Assembly (NCBI GenBank): GCA_016789005.1 | Contig: JAEURA010000033.1 | Location: 1-64,000 of the forward strand | Length of the DNA: 64,000 nucleotides | From: Anaerolineae bacterium | GTDB taxonomy: Bacteria > Chloroflexota > Anaerolineae > Aggregatilineales > Phototrophicaceae | Direction: 5' to 3' | Shown: positions 22,413-60,302 of the stretch, piece after piece | Layout of the letters: each line of letters begins with the position of its first letter | Position numbering within the stretch: the first letter of the stretch is position 1 | Position numbers and translations under genes: made by a program | Notes under the pieces: generated by a model | What the model saw: only the letters and a program-made list of their open reading frames with translations | Told to the model about the DNA's origin: nothing | Databases searched by the model: none

Positions 22413-25400
22413 CTAGGAGGCGTCGCACAGCGGCTCTATTCGGTATTGGGCGCGCTCCTCACACGAGAAGTCTGGAAGGTCGCGGTTGGCGCGAACCCAG
22501 GACAGCAGTTCGTCCAGAGGTTGGTCGGCGATTTGCCATTCGATCACCTTGCCGTCCATGCCGGCGGAATAAGCGGTCTTCCCATCGGCACTGAAGACGG
22601 CTTCCCAGACAAAGTTTGTATGCCCGTAGAACCGCCGCACCACCTGCCCGCTGGCGAAGTCCCACAGGATGACCATGCCCGACTGATCGCCGGAGATGAC
22701 GTATCGCTGATCGACACTGAGGTCAAGATCGCGCACCCAGTTGCCGTGACAGCAGAAGCGGCGGCTCACCTCACCCGTTTCGTAGTCGATCAGTTGAATC
22801 TCGCCGCTGCCCAAACCCGCCAGCACCTGGGGAGTTCCCGGCACCAGCGCCAGGCTGAGGACCGCCGAACTGGGAAGGAAGTGGCGAAGCTCCTGCCCTG
22901 TCGCGGCATCCCAGACGATCAGCCCGGTGATGGTGGTCATGCCGGAACCGGTCAGGATGGCGCTGCCGTCTTCCGTGAATGCGCTGGCGTTGACCCACAG
23001 GTCGGTGTTCAGCCTCAGCACCTCCTCGCCCGTCTCCGCGCTCCAGACGATGGTGTCGCCATGCAGACTATCCTCCCAGAAGTCACCCCACTGGATGCTG
23101 TTCGCCAGCGCGTAGCGGCCATCCGGGCTGAATGACGCCCAGTATGGAATGTAGTCGAAGCCTTCGAGCGCGTGAAGTTTCGCGCCTGTTTCAACATCCC
23201 ACAGGGTGTAGCTGCCCGCGCCGGTGTTGCCGAACCAGTCCGCTGAGGCAACCAGCAGCGTGCGCCCATCTCCGCTGAAGGCGATCCGCCAGACCATGCC
23301 GACTGCGGCGGGGAATCGACGAACTTCCTCGCCGCTAGACTTCTCCTGAAGGATCACCACGCCGCCGGCGGTGCCCAATGCCAGATATCGCCCGTCGGGG
23401 CTTTCTACGGCGGACGTGAACCGGATGGTCTCGTCGCCGAAACGGCGGTTTTCTCCGGTCTGGGGGAGTTCCCAGAGAACAAGCACCCCACTCCGAGTCC
23501 CGTAGAGACCCATCCCTGCCGTGGAGACCATGAGCGAGCTAATGTTTTTCTTGCCCCGCTCATAAGACGCAATACCGTACTCAAGCCGCCACTGATCGAT
23601 ATTCCAGGCGCGCAGGTGCCCCAGTTCCGCAAAGAAAAGGGTACGCCCGTCCGGTGATAGCGCCAGATCGGTCGGCGTGCCGATGAACGACTGCTGCCTC
23701 TCAAGGTCGCCGGTTTCCAGATTCCACAGGCTGATAAAGCTGTTGCGCGTCACCGAGACCAGGCGACTTCCGGACGCGAACGCCACGCCGGTCACGCGCG
23801 AGCCATGTCCCTCAAGCGCCATCAGCCGGTCGCCGGTCGCAGCATCCCACAGGATGACCGCCCCCTCCGCGCCGCCGGTCGCCAATTTCGCGCCATCTGC
23901 GCTGAAAGAAAGGCAATCGACCTCGCCGGTGTGCCCTTCCAGCGTGCGGACGATCTCGCCGGTCTCGGCATCCCAAAGCGCCGCCATCATGTCATCCGAC
24001 GCTGTAGCGAAAAATCTCCCGTCCGGGCTGAAGGCGATGTCATTGATGCCCGCGCTCTGTTCCTCGAAGCGGCGGATCTCCTCACCATCCGGAATCGCCC
24101 ACAGGATTGCCGTCCCATCCGAATCAGCCGAAAGTGCGGTCGTCCCATCCGGCGAAAAGCTCACGGCGTTCACCCAACCGGAATGTCCTTCGAGCCGCCG
24201 CATTTCGACTTTCGCCTGGGTATCCCAGAGAATCAGTTCGCCCATCGCGCACGCTTCGCCCTCGGTCAACGCCGCGCAGCTTCCTGTGAGCGCGTATCGC
24301 CCGTCAGGACTGAGCGCGCCCGCCCTGATCTCACCACTGTGACCGGGTAAGACAGCCCGGATGCCCGCACCCTGGGCAATTTCCCGAAAGGCGACTTCTG
24401 CCTCGGACGGGGGATCTTCAACTTGAAGCGCTTCCAGCGCCAGCGAGGTCGCCAGGGCCGTATTGCCGTTCTCGTAGGAATCGAGTGCGCTGCCCGCCAA
24501 CACCAGGCTGTGGTTGACGGCGCTCTCGCGCTCCGCCTGGGCAAGCGCCTCCTGCGCCCGTCCTTCCTGCTGGAAGGCGTACAGGGCGAGCGCCACCGCC
24601 GCCGCCAGGAAGACTGCCAGCCCCGCCGCCAGAAAGCGCAGACGGTTCGCCGCCTGCCGCTGACTCTCGGCGAGCATGCGCTGCGTCTCCACTTCGCGCC
24701 GCTGGCGTTCCTGCTCAGCGTCCCTCTGGCGTCCGGCTTCGGCGATGCTGGTTTCCAGGTAAGTGTGCTCCTCCTGATTGAGCGCCAGGCGCGCCTCGGC
24801 AGACCAGGCTGCCATCTGCTCCAGACGGGCGCCGCGCAGCAGGTAACTGGCGTCTTTGCCCGCCTCAAACCATTCGGCGGCGGCGGCAGCCAGCAGGCGC
24901 TGCTGGCGAATGTCATGCCGGCTCTCGTCGATCCAGATCCTCAGCCGTTCCCACTCCCGCAGGATCGCCTCATGTGCGATTTCGACCGTCGGGCGGCGCG
25001 TCGCCGGGTCATGATCCAGTGTAAGCAGCCGATAGGCGGCATACATGTCGAGAATCTCATCGGTCATGTCTGCATCAGTGGCGACTGCCAGCAGTTCCGA
25101 ACGCAGCGCCCGCCGCCGCGTGTCTCCTGTGCCTTCGCCCAGTGAGACCAGGCGCAGAAACATCTGTCGGATGATCTCCCGCCCGGCTTCCGGCTGCTCG
25201 TGATACAGGTCTTCGGCACGTTTCGCCAGCGCGCCGGATGCCCTCCCCAGCGCATGGTAGGCGTCGCTGGTCAGAGTGTGGTCTGAACGCCGCTGGAACA
25301 GCTCGGTCAGCGCGTATTGCAGCAGAGGCAGCGCTCCCGGTTGAGCATGAACGTCCCCGCTGATCGCGGCGACCAGCCCAGGCTCAAACGCCACCCCTTC

Positions 25401-27194
25401 GCGCGATGCGGGCAGGGTGATCGCCTCTTCCAGCTCTTCGGGAGACAGGGGCATCACCGTCTCCATGCGGCTCCGCACCAGTTCGCCAAACTCCAGGTAT
25501 TGCAGCGGACGATCATAGAAGTCGGCGCGCAGCGTGATGATCACGCGAACGCGGCTGCGTGGGCTGGCGACAGCCGAAGCCAGCAAGCCGATGAACTGCG
25601 CGCGACGGGCTTCATCATCGACCAGGGTGAACACTTCTTCGAACTGATCGACGATGACCGCCAGTTCACTGTCGTCGTCTGGCAGGATCAGCGCAGCGGA
25701 GCGCCGCAAGCCTCGTGCGTCGCGGTCCAGGTGCTCGCGCAGGTTCCCTGCCGGGTGAACAGCAACCCTGGTCAGCGCGATCTCCAGCTCGTCCAGCGGA
25801 TATGCGCCGGGAGTCATCTCGACCAAAAACCAGCGTTCTGAACCGGGGAGATCGCCGCGGCGCAACGCCGGCAGCAGCCCCGCTTTCACGACGCTCGATT
25901 TTCCGCAGCCGCTCGGTCCCACCACCGCCAGAAACCGCGCCAGCGGATCGTCCTCACTCAGACGCTTGATTAGCTTCTGAACCAGCCGCCCGCGTCCGAA
26001 GAAGTCGGCAGAATCCGCCTCGGCAAATGCTCGCAAGCCCTTGTAGGGGTTCACCAGTTCAACGGTAGCGCGCGCGGAGACCTCCCCTTCGCTGATCCGA
26101 AGGGTGGGCGTATCGACAGCCTCCTCTTCGTTCACCCGTGCTCTGGCGGCATAAGGCTCGGTCAGGCGCAGGGCGAGCGCGCGTTCAATCGCCTGCTGCC
26201 GGCTGTGAACGTCCAGCTTGCTGTAGATCTGCCGCATGTACCACTTCACCGTCTCCGGCGAAAGCACCAGCCGTTCGCAGATCTGACCGTTCGTCAGCCC
26301 TTCGACCACCAGCCGCATCACTTCGATCTCTCGCTCGGTCAGCGCATCGACGAGCGGTTGCGCCGGAACGCGCGGCAGCGCGGCTGGCAGCGCCGCGCGA
26401 AATGCCGCCGCGAAACGCTGCGCCGATGGATAGCGATGCCTGGGGTCTTTGGCGGTCGCCGTTTGCAGCACCTCGTCCAGACCCGCCGGGAAATTCGGGC
26501 GTGCCTGGCTGATCGCCGGCAGTGGAATCGCCAGATGCTTCTGGATGAAATCGCTGGGGGTCTTTGCGTCCGGGTATGGGGCGCTTCCAGACAGCACCTC
26601 GTACATCACGTAGCCGAGGCTGTAGATATCGGATCGCGGGCTGACTTCCTCGCTGCGAATCTGTTCTGGCGAAGAATAGGCGGGCGAGCCGAGGAATTCC
26701 TCCTCGGAAGGCGTTTCAGGCTGCTGCGTATCGACAGCAATGCCAAAGTCCGCCAGATAGGCGTTGCCATCCTCATCGAGGAGGATGTTCTCCGGTTTGA
26801 TGTCCCGGTGGACGATTCCCTCACGATGCGCCACCGTCAGCGCCTCCGACAGATGATCGAGCAAGCGCGCCGCCGCTTCCAGCTTCCACGCCCCCGGGTC
26901 CAGCGACGCGCGCAGGTTGGCAGACAGCCAGCGCATGATGAGGTAAGCGCCTTCCGGGTCGCGCCAGTAGTCGTAAAGGGGAACTATGTGGGGATGCTCC
27001 AAGCGCGCGATGATCTGCGCTTCCACTTCGAAACGGCGGATGAAGTCCGGTTGGTTGGCGTGCCTGGGCAGGATAACCTTGATCGCAACTTCGCGCTGGA
27101 CCGAAGGCTGGTATGCTCGGTAGACGACGCCGAACCCCCCGGCTCCGATCCGCTCCCGAAGCTCGTATCCCTTGATCGTCGTAGAGGCAGCCAT
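22413..27194 (-). CDS. Ser/Thr protein kinase fused to LuxR HTH, STAND ATPase, membrane helix and WD40 propellers
   Basis: About 1593 residues. Residues ~9-265 are a Hanks-type kinase: glycine loop RIGAGGFGVVY, Lys in VAIKV, HRDIKPENILL, ADFGIA and GSPAYSSPEQI, so it is predicted active. Residues ~283-345 form a LuxR/GerE helix-turn-helix (LTEREIEVMRLVVEGLTNGQ). From ~380 an nSTAND1 ATPase begins (NPYKGLRAF), with Walker A GPSGCGKSS near 425 and Walker B LAVIVDQFEEVF. A coiled region and one membrane helix (~852-875) follow, then about a dozen WD40 repeats (for example HSGEIRAGALSPDGRYALTG) to the end. The ATG at 27194 has AAAGGGG upstream; a TTG at 27212 is less likely. Role: signal sensing with phosphorylation and possibly DNA binding. 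Confidence 0.9.
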   Translation of the reverse strand: MAASTTIKGYELRERIGAGGFGVVYRAYQPSVQREVAIKVILPRHANQPDFIRRFEVEAQIIARLEHPHIVPLYDYWRDPEGAYLIMRWLSANLRASLDPGAWKLEAAARLLDHLSEALTVAHREGIVHRDIKPENILLDEDGNAYLADFGIAVDTQQPETPSEEEFLGSPAYSSPEQIRSEEVSPRSDIYSLGYVMYEVLSGSAPYPDAKTPSDFIQKHLAIPLPAISQARPNFPAGLDEVLQTATAKDPRHRYPSAQRFAAAFRAALPAALPRVPAQPLVDALTEREIEVMRLVVEGLTNGQICERLVLSPETVKWYMRQIYSKLDVHSRQQAIERALALRLTEPYAARARVNEEEAVDTPTLRISEGEVSARATVELVNPYKGLRAFAEADSADFFGRGRLVQKLIKRLSEDDPLARFLAVVGPSGCGKSSVVKAGLLPALRRGDLPGSERWFLVEMTPGAYPLDELEIALTRVAVHPAGNLREHLDRDARGLRRSAALILPDDDSELAVIVDQFEEVFTLVDDEARRAQFIGLLASAVASPRSRVRVIITLRADFYDRPLQYLEFGELVRSRMETVMPLSPEELEEAITLPASREGVAFEPGLVAAISGDVHAQPGALPLLQYALTELFQRRSDHTLTSDAYHALGRASGALAKRAEDLYHEQPEAGREIIRQMFLRLVSLGEGTGDTRRRALRSELLAVATDADMTDEILDMYAAYRLLTLDHDPATRRPTVEIAHEAILREWERLRIWIDESRHDIRQQRLLAAAAAEWFEAGKDASYLLRGARLEQMAAWSAEARLALNQEEHTYLETSIAEAGRQRDAEQERQRREVETQRMLAESQRQAANRLRFLAAGLAVFLAAAVALALYAFQQEGRAQEALAQAERESAVNHSLVLAGSALDSYENGNTALATSLALEALQVEDPPSEAEVAFREIAQGAGIRAVLPGHSGEIRAGALSPDGRYALTGSCAALTEGEACAMGELILWDTQAKVEMRRLEGHSGWVNAVSFSPDGTTALSADSDGTAILWAIPDGEEIRRFEEQSAGINDIAFSPDGRFFATASDDMMAALWDAETGEIVRTLEGHTGEVDCLSFSADGAKLATGGAEGAVILWDAATGDRLMALEGHGSRVTGVAFASGSRLVSVTRNSFISLWNLETGDLERQQSFIGTPTDLALSPDGRTLFFAELGHLRAWNIDQWRLEYGIASYERGKKNISSLMVSTAGMGLYGTRSGVLVLWELPQTGENRRFGDETIRFTSAVESPDGRYLALGTAGGVVILQEKSSGEEVRRFPAAVGMVWRIAFSGDGRTLLVASADWFGNTGAGSYTLWDVETGAKLHALEGFDYIPYWASFSPDGRYALANSIQWGDFWEDSLHGDTIVWSAETGEEVLRLNTDLWVNASAFTEDGSAILTGSGMTTITGLIVWDAATGQELRHFLPSSAVLSLALVPGTPQVLAGLGSGEIQLIDYETGEVSRRFCCHGNWVRDLDLSVDQRYVISGDQSGMVILWDFASGQVVRRFYGHTNFVWEAVFSADGKTAYSAGMDGKVIEWQIADQPLDELLSWVRANRDLPDFSCEERAQYRIEPLCDAS

Positions 27195-27234
27195 GCGAGT
27201 AACCCCTTTCAAAAAAGATTGTACTTTTAGTCAC

Positions 27235-27301: not shown

Positions 27302-27330
27302 TTGACAAAACGCTGCAAACCCTTTAGGCT
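27302..27330 (+). promoter_or_regulatory. Promoter of the sulfur-operon leader
   Basis: A perfect TTGACA (27302-27307), 17-base spacer and a weak TAGGCT (27325-27330). Transcription from about 27337 would produce a leader of ~250 bases before the rhodanese ATG, containing the Cys-rich peptide, a hairpin and two terminators. Confidence 0.5.
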
Positions 27331-27374
27331 TTCAAACATCGATGAGAAACCAGCAAACCTGAATAACAAACCTG

Positions 27375-27458
27375 ATGCTCTTCTACCAGATGTTCGCCGC
27401 CTTCATGTGTATGCCCTGTTGTTGTGCGAACAACAGGCGGGATTCGCATCGGCTGTAA
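27375..27458 (+). CDS. Putative polycysteine leader peptide (27 residues)
   Basis: A short frame with four cysteines: residue 12 and the run at 15-17, within MCMPCCCANN. Cys codons are TGT at 27408, 27417, 27420 and 27423. No clear Shine-Dalgarno site precedes the ATG; other in-frame ATGs lie at 27390, 27405 and 27411. The Cys run sits in the left arm and loop of a hairpin (27415-27437), and terminators follow. In mycobacteria, polycysteine short frames are known attenuators of sulfur genes; here the downstream operon handles sulfane sulfur. Translation and control are inferred. Confidence 0.5.
   Translation: MLFYQMFAAFMCMPCCCANNRRDSHRL
27415..27437 (+). promoter_or_regulatory. Hairpin over the Cys codons (attenuator 1:2 stem)
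   Basis: CCTGTTGTT (27415-27423) pairs perfectly with AACAACAGG (27429-27437) around a 5-base loop. It overlaps the three consecutive Cys codons. The right side (27435-27441) can instead pair with 27491-27497, inside the terminator's left arm (7 bp, one G-U), giving the alternative fold expected of an attenuator. Confidence 0.5.
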
Positions 27459-27485
27459 TCGTCATCTGACTTCACTCAGCTCACC

Positions 27486-27528
27486 AGCGCCCCGTCTTCG
27501 GTCTTCCGAGTCGGGGCGCTTTTGTTTT
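27486..27528 (+). terminator. Intrinsic terminator in sulfur-operon leader
   Basis: A 9-bp GC-rich stem AGCGCCCCG / CGGGGCGCT (27486-27494 with 27512-27520), then TTTTGTTTT. It stands 100 bases upstream of the rhodanese start and has no full gene before it, so it would end leader transcripts unless an alternative fold forms. Confidence 0.8.
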
Positions 27529-27530
27529 CA

Positions 27531-27558
27531 GCGCACGACACGGGTCATGCGCTTTTTT
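27531..27558 (+). terminator. Second terminator-like hairpin in the leader
   Basis: An 8-bp stem with one mismatch (27531-27538 with 27545-27552), 6-base loop and six T (27553-27558). It directly follows the first terminator and lies 28 bases before the rhodanese ATG. Confidence 0.6.
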
Positions 27559-27586
27559 GTTTGTGGGACGAAGGAGGAAATTGAAA

Positions 27587-28390
27587 ATGCCGCAAGCCAG
27601 TCCACCCAGCGCCGTCGGCAGCCTGCTGGTCGAACCGGAATGGCTTGCCTCTCGCCTGGATGCCGAACACCTGCGCATCGTCGATGTACGGCTGGCGGAA
27701 AGCTTTGCCGATGGTCACATCCCGAACGCCGTCCATCTCGATCTGAACACGCTGCGCGCCGAACACGACGGTATCGAAGGGATGCTGATCACCCCAGAAG
27801 CGTTTGCCAGGATCATCGGGCAAATGGGGGTAGACGCCGATACGACGGTAGTCCTGTACGACGACCATCATGGCATGCCGGCGGCGCGCGCCGCCTGGAG
27901 CCTGCTGCGCTATGGACATACCAGGCTTGCGCTGCTCGACGGTGGATGGAACGCCTGGGAAAATGGCGCTTTTCCAGCCACACAGGAGGTGTCATTCATC
28001 ACACCCCGGCGGTTTGGCGTCGTTCAGGCAGAGCAGTACGGCGCAGACTTTGTATGGGTGCATGCCCGCCTGAACCACCCTGATGTGATTCTGCTCGATG
28101 TGCGTTCCAACGCCGAATACGCCAAGGGACATCTGCCCGGTGCGCTCCTGTGGGACTGGGAAAACGGGGCGAACGAAAACAGCACCTTCCGCAGCGCCGC
28201 TGACCTGCGTGCTTCACTGGCGCATGCCGGCGTCACGCCTGACCGCGAGATTGTCACCTACTGCCAGAGCGGCGTCCGCGCCTCGCACACCTTCCTGCTG
28301 CTCAAACACTTGGGCTTTGAGCGGGTACGCATGTATGACGGCTCGTGGGCAGAGTGGTCGAGCCGGGGCGCAGAAGCCGAACGTTCATAG
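27587..28390 (+). CDS. Thiosulfate/3-mercaptopyruvate sulfurtransferase (two-domain rhodanese), cytoplasmic
   Basis: 267 residues with two rhodanese domains. The N-terminal one has DVRLAESFADGHIPNAVHLD but no active cysteine; the C-terminal one carries Cys226 in TYCQSGVRASHT, which would hold the persulfide. The substrate is thiosulfate or mercaptopyruvate; the loop CQSGVR does not settle which. The start is fixed by AGGAGG seven to twelve bases upstream; the frame's earlier start at 27557 lies in the terminator stem region. It is the first gene of the sulfur operon, behind the Cys leader. Confidence 0.88.
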   Translation: MPQASPPSAVGSLLVEPEWLASRLDAEHLRIVDVRLAESFADGHIPNAVHLDLNTLRAEHDGIEGMLITPEAFARIIGQMGVDADTTVVLYDDHHGMPAARAAWSLLRYGHTRLALLDGGWNAWENGAFPATQEVSFITPRRFGVVQAEQYGADFVWVHARLNHPDVILLDVRSNAEYAKGHLPGALLWDWENGANENSTFRSAADLRASLAHAGVTPDREIVTYCQSGVRASHTFLLLKHLGFERVRMYDGSWAEWSSRGAEAERS

Positions 28391-28434
28391 AGGCACGCAC
28401 CGCTCAGTCACTTATGCTTCAGGGAGAGATTAAC

Positions 28435-29682
28435 ATGCAAGCACAATCTGGTTCGCTTCTGCCGCCCGCGTCGGCGCTCAACCTCGGCGGTCCTCGCGCG
28501 GTGCGCGGCGCGCTGGCGCTCGCCGCTGCCGTCGCCGTCTACTACTTCGCCGCCGGTAACGAAGTCCGCATGGGCACGTTCTGGGTGCTGGGGCTGGCGT
28601 TCGGCTTCGCCTTACAGCGCAGTCGGTTCTGTTTCGCCAGCGCCTTCCGCGACATCTTCCTGCTCCGTCATGGACGCACGCTCAAAGGGGTGCTCGTCGG
28701 CTTGGCGGTTGCCGCCGTTGGCTTTTCAACACTGATGGCGCGCCAGGTCCCCAATACCGCATTGGGTGTGCTTCCGCCCGACGCCAACGTGCTGCCGATG
28801 GGGCTGCACACGATTGTCGGCGGCGTCCTTTTCGGCTTCGGCATGGTCATCGCGGGCGGCTGCGTCTCGGGCAGTATCTATCGCATGGGCGAAGGCTACG
28901 TCGCCTCCTGGGTGAGCTTCTTCGGCATCATCCTGGGCGTGCTGGGCGCTGCCTACACCTGGAATTGGTGGTGGGAATTCCAGATCGAGGACGGCTTGCG
29001 GCTCTGGCTGCCCAACCTGCTCGGTCATGGCGGGGCGCTGGCGCTGACTCTGGCGGCGCTGGCGGGTCTCTTCGTGCTGACGCTGTGGTGGGAAAGCCGC
29101 GCCGGCGTGGTCGTGCCGGACGCCCCATTTCAGGCTGAGGAAGAAGCAAATTTCGCCGCCAGGCTGCGCAATCTGTTCAAGCGCATCTTCGTTCACGGCT
29201 GGACGCCGCTTCTAGGCGGCGCGGTGCTGGGCGGGCTGAACGTCGTTTCGTTCATCACCGAACGCCCCTGGGGATTCACCGGCGAACTCTCCCGCTGGAG
29301 CATCGGCATCTCCAACAGCCTGGGTTTTGGTCCCGGCATCCTCAAAGGCGTCGACGCCCTCCCCGGCTGCACGCTGGAACTTGGCGACAACGGCGTCCTG
29401 CATTTCATGCTCTTCCTGGTCCTCGGCATGATCTACGGCTCGTTTCTGGCAGCGTACTTCTCCGGCGAGTTCAAGATTCGCATCCCCAAGCAGCGAATCC
29501 GCTTCGTTCAGGCGGGCGGCGGCGGGCTGATCATGGGCTACGGTGCGGGCATCGCGATGGGCTGCACCATCGGCGCGTTCTTTTCCGCCATCGCTTCACT
29601 GGCGGTCAACGGCTGGGTTTTCGCCATCTTCCTGGCAATCGGCGCATGGCTGGGCACACAGGCAATTCAAAGGATCCCCTGA
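28435..29682 (+). CDS. YeeE/YedE (TsuA-like) thiosulfate transporter
   Basis: 415 residues with about ten membrane helices. It has the conserved cysteines of the family: Cys66 (SRFCFAS), Cys143 (AGGCVSGSIYRMGEG), Cys312 (LPGCTLE) and Cys377 (AMGCTIGAFF). In characterised TsuA (YeeE) proteins such cysteines line a path that passes thiosulfate through the membrane. AGGGAGAG precedes the ATG. It lies 44 bases after the rhodanese gene and 25 before the TusA-like gene, its usual partner. Confidence 0.88.
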   Translation: MQAQSGSLLPPASALNLGGPRAVRGALALAAAVAVYYFAAGNEVRMGTFWVLGLAFGFALQRSRFCFASAFRDIFLLRHGRTLKGVLVGLAVAAVGFSTLMARQVPNTALGVLPPDANVLPMGLHTIVGGVLFGFGMVIAGGCVSGSIYRMGEGYVASWVSFFGIILGVLGAAYTWNWWWEFQIEDGLRLWLPNLLGHGGALALTLAALAGLFVLTLWWESRAGVVVPDAPFQAEEEANFAARLRNLFKRIFVHGWTPLLGGAVLGGLNVVSFITERPWGFTGELSRWSIGISNSLGFGPGILKGVDALPGCTLELGDNGVLHFMLFLVLGMIYGSFLAAYFSGEFKIRIPKQRIRFVQAGGGGLIMGYGAGIAMGCTIGAFFSAIASLAVNGWVFAIFLAIGAWLGTQAIQRIP

Positions 29683-29707
29683 AGGGACAAAAACCAAAGG
29701 AGTATCG

Positions 29708-29935
29708 ATGATGAGCAAGCGAATCGATTTGCGCGGCGAGATCTGTCCGTACCCGATGATGAAGACCGTGCAAGCCCTGAAGAAACTGGGCAAGGAGGAA
29801 CGTGAACTCGTGGTGGTCATCGACCACGCGCCGGCGCTGGAGACTATCCCGACGCAGGCGGAACGGCTCGGCTTCAGCGTCGAGATCAAAGAAACCGGTT
29901 CGCCGGAATGGCAAATTACCCTGACACGCAAATAA
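29708..29935 (+). CDS. TusA/YeeD-like sulfur carrier protein
   Basis: 75 residues with the TusA fold. Cys13 in EICPYPMMK is the CPxP cysteine that carries a persulfide. It receives sulfane sulfur from the transporter or rhodanese and hands it on in the cytoplasm (TsuB/YeeD role). AAAGGAG lies 5 bases from the first ATG and 8 from the second, so residue 1 or 2 may be the start. Confidence 0.88.
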   Translation: MMSKRIDLRGEICPYPMMKTVQALKKLGKEERELVVVIDHAPALETIPTQAERLGFSVEIKETGSPEWQITLTRK

Positions 29936-29959
29936 CCTGTGCAACGGAGGCATTTTCCC

Positions 29960-30862
29960 ATGAAGAAGGTCCTGAACTTCATCCTGCTGTCGCTTCTCGT
30001 GCTGAGCGGCGCGCTGGTCAGCGCCCAGGAGGCACAGCTTGATTACGCCAAACCGGAAATCCTGGTGGATACGGCATGGGTCCTGGAGCATCTAGAAGAC
30101 GAGAATGTCCGGCTGATCCATCTGGCGGGGAAGCTGGAAGATTACGAAGCGGCGCATATCGACGGGGCGCTCTTCACCACCCTTGCCAATCTGAATAACC
30201 CCGATGATCCGATCAGCGGGCAGATCGGCACGCCGGAGCAGGTCGCTACAAACCTGGGCAGCCTTGGCGTCACGGTGGACAACACGGTTGTGCTGTATGA
30301 CGCCAACAACAACCTTCTCGCGGCACGCGCTTACTGGGTGCTGAAGTACTACCAGCACGCCGACGTGCGAATCTATAACGGCGGGACCAAGAAGTGGGAA
30401 GAAGAGGGTCAGCCGTTTGTGGCGGGCGCAGCGCCGGAGGTTGAGCCGGTCGCCTACGAAATCGCCGAAGCTGATCCGGAGATTCGCACCACCAGCGAGT
30501 ATGTGTTGGAACACCTGGACGACGCCGGCGTGCAGCTGTGCGATTCGCGTAATCCGGAAGAGTTCATCGGCACCGATGTGCGCGCCGACCGGGGTGGGCA
30601 TATTCCCGGCGCGATCAATCTGGATTGGGTGCACACGGTGAATCAGGACGGCACGTTCAAGTCTTTTGCCGAGCTGGATACCCTGTTCCAGGCGGCGGGC
30701 TTCGACCGCGCCAAGCAGATCATCACCTACTGCCAGACGGGCGTTCGCGGCGCGCATGTGTGGTTCGCCCTGCGCGAGCTGCTCGGCTACGAAGACGTGC
30801 GCAACTACGATGGTTCCTGGGAAGAGTGGGGCAATGACGCCGAACTCCCCATCGATAACTAG
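29960..30862 (+). CDS. Exported two-domain rhodanese (thiosulfate sulfurtransferase)
   Basis: 300 residues. A signal peptide (MKKVLNFILLSLLVLSGALV, cleaved near SAQ) is followed by two rhodanese domains. Cys258 in TYCQTGVRGAHV is the active cysteine in the second. It would act outside the membrane on thiosulfate or a sulfane donor before uptake by the YeeE-type transporter. It is the last gene of the operon, 24 bases after the TusA-like gene with CGGAGG upstream; the ATG at 29960 is chosen because it puts the signal peptide first. Transcription ends at the 19-bp hairpin that follows. Confidence 0.87.
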   Translation: MKKVLNFILLSLLVLSGALVSAQEAQLDYAKPEILVDTAWVLEHLEDENVRLIHLAGKLEDYEAAHIDGALFTTLANLNNPDDPISGQIGTPEQVATNLGSLGVTVDNTVVLYDANNNLLAARAYWVLKYYQHADVRIYNGGTKKWEEEGQPFVAGAAPEVEPVAYEIAEADPEIRTTSEYVLEHLDDAGVQLCDSRNPEEFIGTDVRADRGGHIPGAINLDWVHTVNQDGTFKSFAELDTLFQAAGFDRAKQIITYCQTGVRGAHVWFALRELLGYEDVRNYDGSWEEWGNDAELPIDN

Positions 30863-59030: not shown

Positions 59031-60302
59031 ATGCTTATACTTCCGGTCGATGTATCCACACTCCTGGACAACAGCACGATGCCGTCACTGCCTGAACTCG
59101 CCGCTCTATTTCTGATTATTTTCACCTACGCCGGAGTAGCGGTCGGGTATGTGCCGCGTCTGCGCATGAACCGCGCCTCTATCGCGCTGGTCGGCGCAGC
59201 CGGGTTGGTCGCGGTCGGCGCGCTGAGCGAATCGCAGGCGCTGGATGCCATCGACCTGGGGACGCTCATCCTGCTGGGGGCGATGATGGTGATCAACAAC
59301 AACCTGCGCATATCGGGGTTTTTCGCCGTCGTCACCTATCGCATCGTCGGCATCGCGCGCACGCCGGGGCTGCTCCTGGCAGTCATCATCTTCGCATCGG
59401 GCATTCTGTCGGCGATCTTCCTCAACGACACCATCTGCCTCATGATGACCCCGCTCGTCCTGGACATCACCCTGCGCCTCAAGCGTCAGCCTCTCCCCTA
59501 CCTGATCGGTCTGGCGACGGCGACCAACGTCGGCTCGACGGCGACGATCACCGGCAACCCGCAGAACATCATCATTGGGCAGGCGAGCGACATCCCTTAT
59601 GTCAGTTTTCTGCTTCAGCTCGCGCCGGTGGCGCTGCTGGGGCTGGGGGTCTGCTGGCTGGTGATCCGGCTGGTGTTCAGGTCGGAGTTTCGCGACTCGC
59701 TTTCGACAGCCGGGTTTGACTTCACGCCGCCGCTCACCCATACGCCGCTGCTGCGCCGGTCGGTCGGCGTCGTGCTGGCGCTGATGATCGCTTTCCTGAT
59801 CGGTCTGCCGACGGTGACGGCGGCGGCGGTCGCTGCTGGCGCGCTGCTAATTTCGCGGGTGCGTCCACAGAAACTGTTCACGCTCGACTGGGATCTGCTG
59901 ATCTTCTTCGCCGGTCTGTTCGTCGTCACCGGTGCGGTCGAATCGATGGGGATCAGCGAGCGCTTCTTCGAACTGCTCGCCCCGCTACTCAACGGCGGAC
60001 TCGCCGGGTTCAGCGGCGCGACAGCAGTCCTCAGCAACCTGGTCTCGAACGTGCCGGCGGTGCTGCTGATGCGAGGCGAGATCGCCGGTTTCGCCGATCC
60101 ACAGCGCATGTGGCTGGCGCTGGCGATGGCGTCCACCCTCGCGGGGAATCTCACCCTGCTCGGCTCAGCCGCGAATCTGATCGTCGCCGAAATTGCCGAC
60201 CGGCGCGGGGTCGAACTCGACTTCATAACGTATCTGCGCGCCGGCGCGATCATCACCGTGATCACGCTGGCGATTGGGGTGATCTGGCTGTCGATCCTCT
60301 GA
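59031..60302 (+). CDS. Anion permease / sodium-proton antiporter family (ArsB/NhaD/SLC13-like)
   Basis: 423 residues with about 10-11 membrane helices. The family hallmark IFLNDTICLMMTPLVLDITL, then ATNVGSTATITGNPQNIIIG, and later FSGATAVLSNLVSNVPAVLL are clear. It transports an anion such as arsenite, or exchanges sodium for protons; the sequence does not decide. The start could be 59031 or the ATG at 59079. It is divergent from etfB and ends in front of a hairpin. Confidence 0.85.
   Translation: MLILPVDVSTLLDNSTMPSLPELAALFLIIFTYAGVAVGYVPRLRMNRASIALVGAAGLVAVGALSESQALDAIDLGTLILLGAMMVINNNLRISGFFAVVTYRIVGIARTPGLLLAVIIFASGILSAIFLNDTICLMMTPLVLDITLRLKRQPLPYLIGLATATNVGSTATITGNPQNIIIGQASDIPYVSFLLQLAPVALLGLGVCWLVIRLVFRSEFRDSLSTAGFDFTPPLTHTPLLRRSVGVVLALMIAFLIGLPTVTAAAVAAGALLISRVRPQKLFTLDWDLLIFFAGLFVVTGAVESMGISERFFELLAPLLNGGLAGFSGATAVLSNLVSNVPAVLLMRGEIAGFADPQRMWLALAMASTLAGNLTLLGSAANLIVAEIADRRGVELDFITYLRAGAIITVITLAIGVIWLSIL

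Follow-up and report, generated by a model that had tools for sequence, protein, structure and literature searches.

The leader region and its operon

The window analyzed here is a 64-kb stretch (64,000 nucleotides) of contig JAEURA010000033.1 from an Anaerolineae bacterium of the phylum Chloroflexota (GCA_016789005.1). On its forward strand, a promoter, a short cysteine-rich frame, and two intrinsic terminators precede an operon of four genes, as follows:

27302..27330, + strand: sigma-70-like promoter, with TTGACA at 27302-27307, a 17-nt spacer, and the best -10, TAGGCT, at 27325-27330
27375..27458, + strand: leader peptide ORF MLFYQMFAAFMCMPCCCANNRRDSHRL, 27 codons, with ATG at 27375 and stop TAA at 27456-27458
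27415..27437, + strand: segments 1:2, a 9-bp hairpin (CCTGTTGTT-GTGCG-AACAACAGG) with the clustered Cys codons inside
27435..27441, + strand: segment 2, AGGCGGG, 5' strand of the putative antiterminator, 9 nt past the last Cys codon
27491..27497, + strand: segment 3, CCCGTCT, which can form the antiterminator with segment 2 or be part of terminator 1
27487..27519, + strand: terminator 1 hairpin, segments 3:4 (arms 27487-27494 and 27512-27519), followed by TTTTGTTTT, the U-tract at 27520-27528
27531..27552, + strand: terminator 2 hairpin (arms 27531-27535 and 27548-27552), followed by TTTTTT, the U-tract at 27553-27558
27587..28390, + strand: rhodanese with two rhodanese domains (PF00581, 7e-45), the first structural gene
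28345..29682, + strand: YeeE/YedE-type sulfur transporter (PF04143, 4e-66)
29543..29935, + strand: TusA-like sulfurtransferase (PF01206, 5e-16), the domain being the second half of the frame
29939..30862, + strand: second rhodanese (PF00581, 2e-35), with a signal-like N terminus as judged by eye

Reading the coordinates directly confirmed the anatomy that a first-pass annotation had reported: the 27-codon frame with Cys at residue 12 (27408-27410) and residues 15, 16, and 17 (27417-27425), the 9-bp hairpin over the Cys run, two terminator hairpins with their T runs (27487-27528 and 27531-27558), the TTGACA at 27302, and an AGGAGG before the rhodanese ATG at 27587. The two weak points that it had named were also seen. 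No Shine-Dalgarno sequence is visible before the leader ATG in the window, and the -10 is weak, with TAGGCT matching at 3 of 6 positions. The sister species (G001) has nearly the same -10, TAGCCT, and 27 of 30 promoter bases are identical in it; TTGACA was seen again upstream of nearly all orthologous leaders. Weak purine stretches lie upstream of the leader ATG in G001 and in two further relatives, G088 and G101, and three in-frame ATGs could serve as the leader start. Transcription is predicted to begin at about 27337, which would leave an untranslated stretch of ∼38 nt before the leader. At the predicted 5' end of the transcript lies a six-codon frame, ATGAGAAACCAGCAAACCTGA (27342-27362), which shares the reading frame of the main leader and ends at a stop of its own; it is kept in G001 with one synonymous change and is possibly a leaderless mini-ORF.

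The true start of the transporter is probably the methionine of MQAQSG within the frame at 28345..29682, and its scores against the NCBIfam models for YedE/FdhT and TsuA fall below their cut-offs. In E. coli, thiosulfate is imported by YeeE proteins (PMC11073785). The gene upstream of the promoter (22413-27212, minus strand) is divergent, and thus both terminators sit between the promoter and the operon. This gene encodes a 1,599-aa protein combining a Ser/Thr kinase, a LuxR-type HTH, an nSTAND NTPase, and WD40 repeats.

We examined how readily such features would arise by chance. At least three Cys within five residues occurred in a frame in 15 of 1,000 dinucleotide shuffles of the leader (1.5%), and the 64-kb window holds four ATG frames with such a cluster, with a terminator after the leader frame only. 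The pairing of 27435-27441 with 27491-27497, also put forward in the first-pass annotation, exists (7 pairs, one of them G-U), and taken alone it is no better than chance (p=0.28). The single locus is therefore suggestive only, and the relatives decide; as described below, the helix is conserved and covaries in them.

Conservation and recurrence in relatives

The leader, the promoter, and the terminators are kept in orthologous operons of several families. The closest comparison is with G001, whose rhodanese is 83% identical and whose leader frame has no indels. Within the core MCMxCCCANNRR, 34 of 36 bases are the same as in the window, the first ten codons are less alike, with 7 differences in 30 bases, and terminator 1 is identical at all 38 bases over 27489-27526. 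Eight base pairs of the 1:2 hairpin are kept, and in the antiterminator the G-U pair of the window is replaced by A-U in a helix of nine pairs. The same four-gene operons occur in G088 and G101, with leaders MQAQFAPMCCLCCMAHTRRALRC and MKNLFCTTIKSMCMCCMCKNP, respectively. Across the orthologous operons the Cys runs read MCMSCCC, MCCLCC, MCMCCMC, CTCCCIC, or LCCCTC, and the rest of the peptides differ. Leaders with CTCCCIC, CICCTC, LCCCTC, FCCCTC, and TCCIC were found in Litorilinea, Caldilineaceae, and other Anaerolineae, with terminators (usually two) after each of these distant leaders, and a Cys leader with promoter and terminators is also present in G316. A genome from another class of the phylum, G599, has the leader ENCICCCSNN immediately upstream of YeeE. 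A single terminator follows it, and the 5' arm of that terminator is complementary to the RNA past the Cys codons (GGGUUUCUU with AAGAAACCC).

At locus L125, the leader is reduced to Cys-Ile-Cys only. It lies on the reverse strand, with an 11-bp 2:3 helix, before two genes, one judged by eye to encode a JAMM-like metalloprotease and the other YeeE. This locus is possibly a reduced variant of the switch, and the metalloprotease possibly belongs to a CysO-type cysteine pathway. No Cys leader was found at the YeeE loci of Gemmatimonadota, and no poly-Cys leader was found in G300, where YeeE lies behind a gene that by eye resembles cysE. A DNA search for the leader in plasmid records gave no match.

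The arrangement also recurs before functionally linked genes. Within the order, 13 of the 22 loci with a paralogous YeeE (transporters about 31 to 36% identical) have a Cys leader and a terminator upstream. The same combination was found at 17 of the 30 cysK/cysM-family loci examined, six of them with cysE alongside; one of the 17 is the cysM locus of the window's own genome. In the window's own genome, where other poly-Cys leaders were sought through target genes only, a second leader with a terminator precedes the cysteine synthase closest to CysM:

L220:2042-2125 (contig C315 of the same genome, about 59541-59624): second poly-Cys leader MQFLFCACCCCRSGGAQGDFGRRRTPA, with the cysM-like gene downstream

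Neither of two further ORFs past this cysM (L220:3214-4505; 211 and 219 aa) matches a Pfam or NCBIfam model. None of 24 cysS loci of relatives showed a Cys run together with a terminator, and no convincing leader was seen at 30 cysK loci taken from the whole phylum, most of them from outside the order.

Alternative helices

In all 13 paralogous leaders, the 5' arm of the terminator finds a complement 8 to 19 nt past the last Cys codon, for example, ACCGGGGU with GCCCCGGU, CGGCCAGGGU with GCCCUGGCCG, and CAGCCAGGGU with GCCCUGGCUG. The combined p values for the 2:3 helix were 7e-10 for these 13 leaders and 3.6e-6 for 12 leaders of the orthologous type, both of which ignore shared ancestry. The helix was weakly significant in cysM-type leaders (p=0.013) and not significant in cysK-cysE leaders (p=0.56). 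On a 16-row alignment that includes the window, 2:3 is paired in 93% of cells, and 10 changes affect both sides of the helix (2.7 expected), a score reached by none of 500 shuffles. Sliding the helix by one to three columns reduces pairing to ∼50% or less. The competing terminator helix, with which 2:3 is mutually exclusive, is also supported. The comparison across relatives that the first-pass annotation had proposed, looking for conserved Cys codons and covarying stems, thus found both conserved, with covariation on both sides of the helix.

When folding was followed sequentially, with the 3' arm of the terminator not yet made, the probability of 2:3 in the window was 0.96 with the ribosome stalled at Cys and 0.31 without a ribosome, and segment 2 was covered with the ribosome at the stop codon. 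The E. coli trp leader, used as a control, gave 0.98 when stalled and 0.0 when free, and was likewise covered at the stop. Equilibrium folding of the full leader let the terminator win in nearly every state in the window and in E. coli trp alike; with ribosome footprints included, it was uninformative for both and was set aside. RNAduplex run on the whole of segment 2 and all sequence past it did not discriminate, and tests of contiguous helices were used instead.

Probable cysteine attenuation, rival readings, and known systems

We interpret the locus as a ribosome-mediated transcription attenuator of the trp type that senses charged Cys-tRNA and controls the sulfur-import and sulfurtransferase operon, a reading to which we give a probability of roughly 0.86. 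Between the promoter and the first gene lies a short ORF in which codons for a single amino acid form a run, and an intrinsic terminator lies past this leader. By the folding and its trp control, the antiterminator is freed by a stalled ribosome and covered at the stop, and the target genes (YeeE, TusA, and the rhodaneses; cysM and cysK-cysE elsewhere) would supply the amino acid being sensed. A ribosome would begin the leader on a transcript started near 27337. With Cys-tRNA plentiful, it would reach the stop at 27456 and cover segment 2, segments 3 and 4 would pair, and RNA polymerase would be stopped at terminator 1, with terminator 2 as a second barrier. Stalling at the Cys codons would instead let the antiterminator 2:3 form. 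The 1:2 hairpin formed by CCTGTTGTT and AACAACAGG would protect segment 2, so that RNA without translation, in which segment 2 is partly held, would tend toward termination. In this scheme we infer the translation of the leader, the stalling, the response to cysteine, and the passage of terminator 2. The cysteine-attenuator interpretation, first offered in the first-pass annotation, is supported by the conserved parts, the covariation, and the recurrence before paralogous importers and cysteine synthase genes; counting against it are the missing Shine-Dalgarno sequence and weak -10, the short 2:3 helix of the window with its chance-level p, the terminator-dominated equilibrium folding (shared by the trp control), the 2:3 helix of Caldilineaceae-type leaders, which lies well upstream of terminator 1, the mere Cys-Ile-Cys of L125, and the weak or nonsignificant helix of the cysM-type and cysK-cysE leaders.

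Metal-responsive Cys-rich upstream frames exist in other bacteria, and the operon handles reactive sulfur, so the nascent peptide might itself sense a metal, a persulfide, or an oxidant and thereby stall or release the ribosome. We consider this improbable: the spacing and neighbors of the Cys residues vary freely (MCMPCCC, MCCLCC, CTCCCIC, LCCCTC, CACCCC, and CMCMCEC), which fits the counting of codons better than a binding site of fixed shape, and the same type of leader also stands before cysteine synthase genes. The chance of 1.5% for the Cys cluster at a single locus and the p of 0.28 for 2:3 alone would allow a short frame arisen by accident, with hairpins that are ordinary terminators of the upstream gene; given that this gene is divergent and that the Cys run and paired stems are widely conserved in relatives, such an accident is scarcely credible. 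It is also very unlikely that the leader acts through translation or Rho, a mode reported or proposed in mycobacteria, and not through the two intrinsic terminators. The mycobacterial poly-Cys frames need no conserved terminator hairpin (PMC1262725, PMC13236596); here intrinsic terminators follow the orthologous leaders checked, and the covarying antiterminator overlaps the 5' arm of the terminator.

Compatible with the trp-type cysteine attenuator, as a refinement of it, would be dual control of the importer operon by cysteine and methionine. Among the non-Cys residues in the Cys cluster, Met accounts for 27 of 70 in the YeeE-operon leaders of the order and 2 of 66 in the leaders of cysK, cysM, and cysK-cysE (Fisher p=1.4e-7, uncorrected for shared ancestry), which suggests that leaders of importer operons may respond to methionine as well as cysteine. 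However, the YeeE leaders share ancestry and their counts are not independent, Caldilineaceae-type leaders have no Met in the cluster, and AUG is one change away from a UGU/UGC-rich context; we regard dual control as rather unlikely. Cys codons in the leaders are UGU and UGC in a ratio of 146:41 (species pooled); the genes of the window prefer UGC (15:5).

A second extension concerns the tandem terminators. Pairing is possible between the two hairpins, from the 3' arm of terminator 1 (27506-27519) to the 5' arm of terminator 2 (27531-27544), and in the window this pairing of CCGaGUCGggGCGC with GCGCaCGACaCGG has an energy of -17.3 kcal/mol against -9.7 for shuffles, with 0 of 300 shuffles reaching it. 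It is supported in the window and in G001, marginally in G088, and not in the other leaders. One may tentatively imagine, though we doubt it, a relay of six segments in which a ribosome held by starvation at a mix of Cys and Met codons frees segment 2 to disarm terminator 1, whose 3' arm then disarms terminator 2, with importers reading both amino acids and cysteine synthase genes cysteine only. If so, one stall would open a double lock.

Compared with the trp-like attenuators of E. coli, the promoter, the codon-run leader, the 1:2, 2:3, and 3:4 helices, the intrinsic terminator, and the behavior in sequential folding are alike. The locus differs in its amino acid (cysteine), in having no clear Shine-Dalgarno sequence, in heading a sulfur-import operon and not a full biosynthetic one, and in belonging to a family usually with tandem terminators. 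Poly-Cys leader peptides without terminators have been predicted in Mycobacterium, Propionibacterium, and Bifidobacterium (PMC1262725), and cysteine-responsive attenuators have been shown in mycobacteria (Canestrari 2020, doi 10.1111/mmi.14498, via PMC13236596), described as translation attenuation. These share with our locus a poly-Cys ORF upstream of sulfur or cysteine genes, but the mycobacterial ORFs are leaderless and without conserved terminator hairpins, whereas here we find a predicted untranslated leader of ∼38 nt, two intrinsic terminators, and a covarying antiterminator. Between the end of the predicted -10 (27330) and the ATG (27375) lie ∼45 nt, which also argues against a leaderless start.

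The first-pass annotation had known of no such switch beyond actinobacteria, which does not hold: uORFC-8-2, a Cys-codon attenuator, has been predicted in Rhodobacterales, exclusively before cysS (PMC8632094). It likewise has Cys codons in the first stem followed by an intrinsic terminator, and ribosome-mediated attenuation was proposed for it. It differs in having two tandem Cys codons, whereas the Chloroflexota leaders usually have three to five and stand before YeeE, cysM, and cysK; in the window the first gene is a rhodanese, not cysS. T-box riboswitches also sense tRNA charging and control termination, but here the sensing is proposed to be by a translated ORF, and the locus matched no Rfam family. 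A comparative survey of RNA regulators, with Chloroflexi among the groups covered, had attenuator models for His, Leu, Thr, and Trp only (PMC3766115), and we found no description of cysteine attenuators in Chloroflexota in open-licence papers. Thus, the cysteine-codon attenuator is not a new kind, being known in mycobacteria and predicted in Rhodobacterales, but its use in Chloroflexota as a regulon for sulfur import and cysteine synthesis appears not to have been described in the papers covered.

If the attenuator reading is correct, cysteine-codon attenuation would extend past actinobacteria and Rhodobacterales, and the many natural variants with covarying helices would be available for testing. 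The leaders point to a regulon of sulfur-amino-acid RNA switches, on sulfur import, cysM, and cysK-cysE, in the Anaerolineae, a large and mostly uncultured group, with at least two such switches in the window's genome, and they suggest cysteine supply as the likely physiological role of rhodanese-YeeE-TusA operons.
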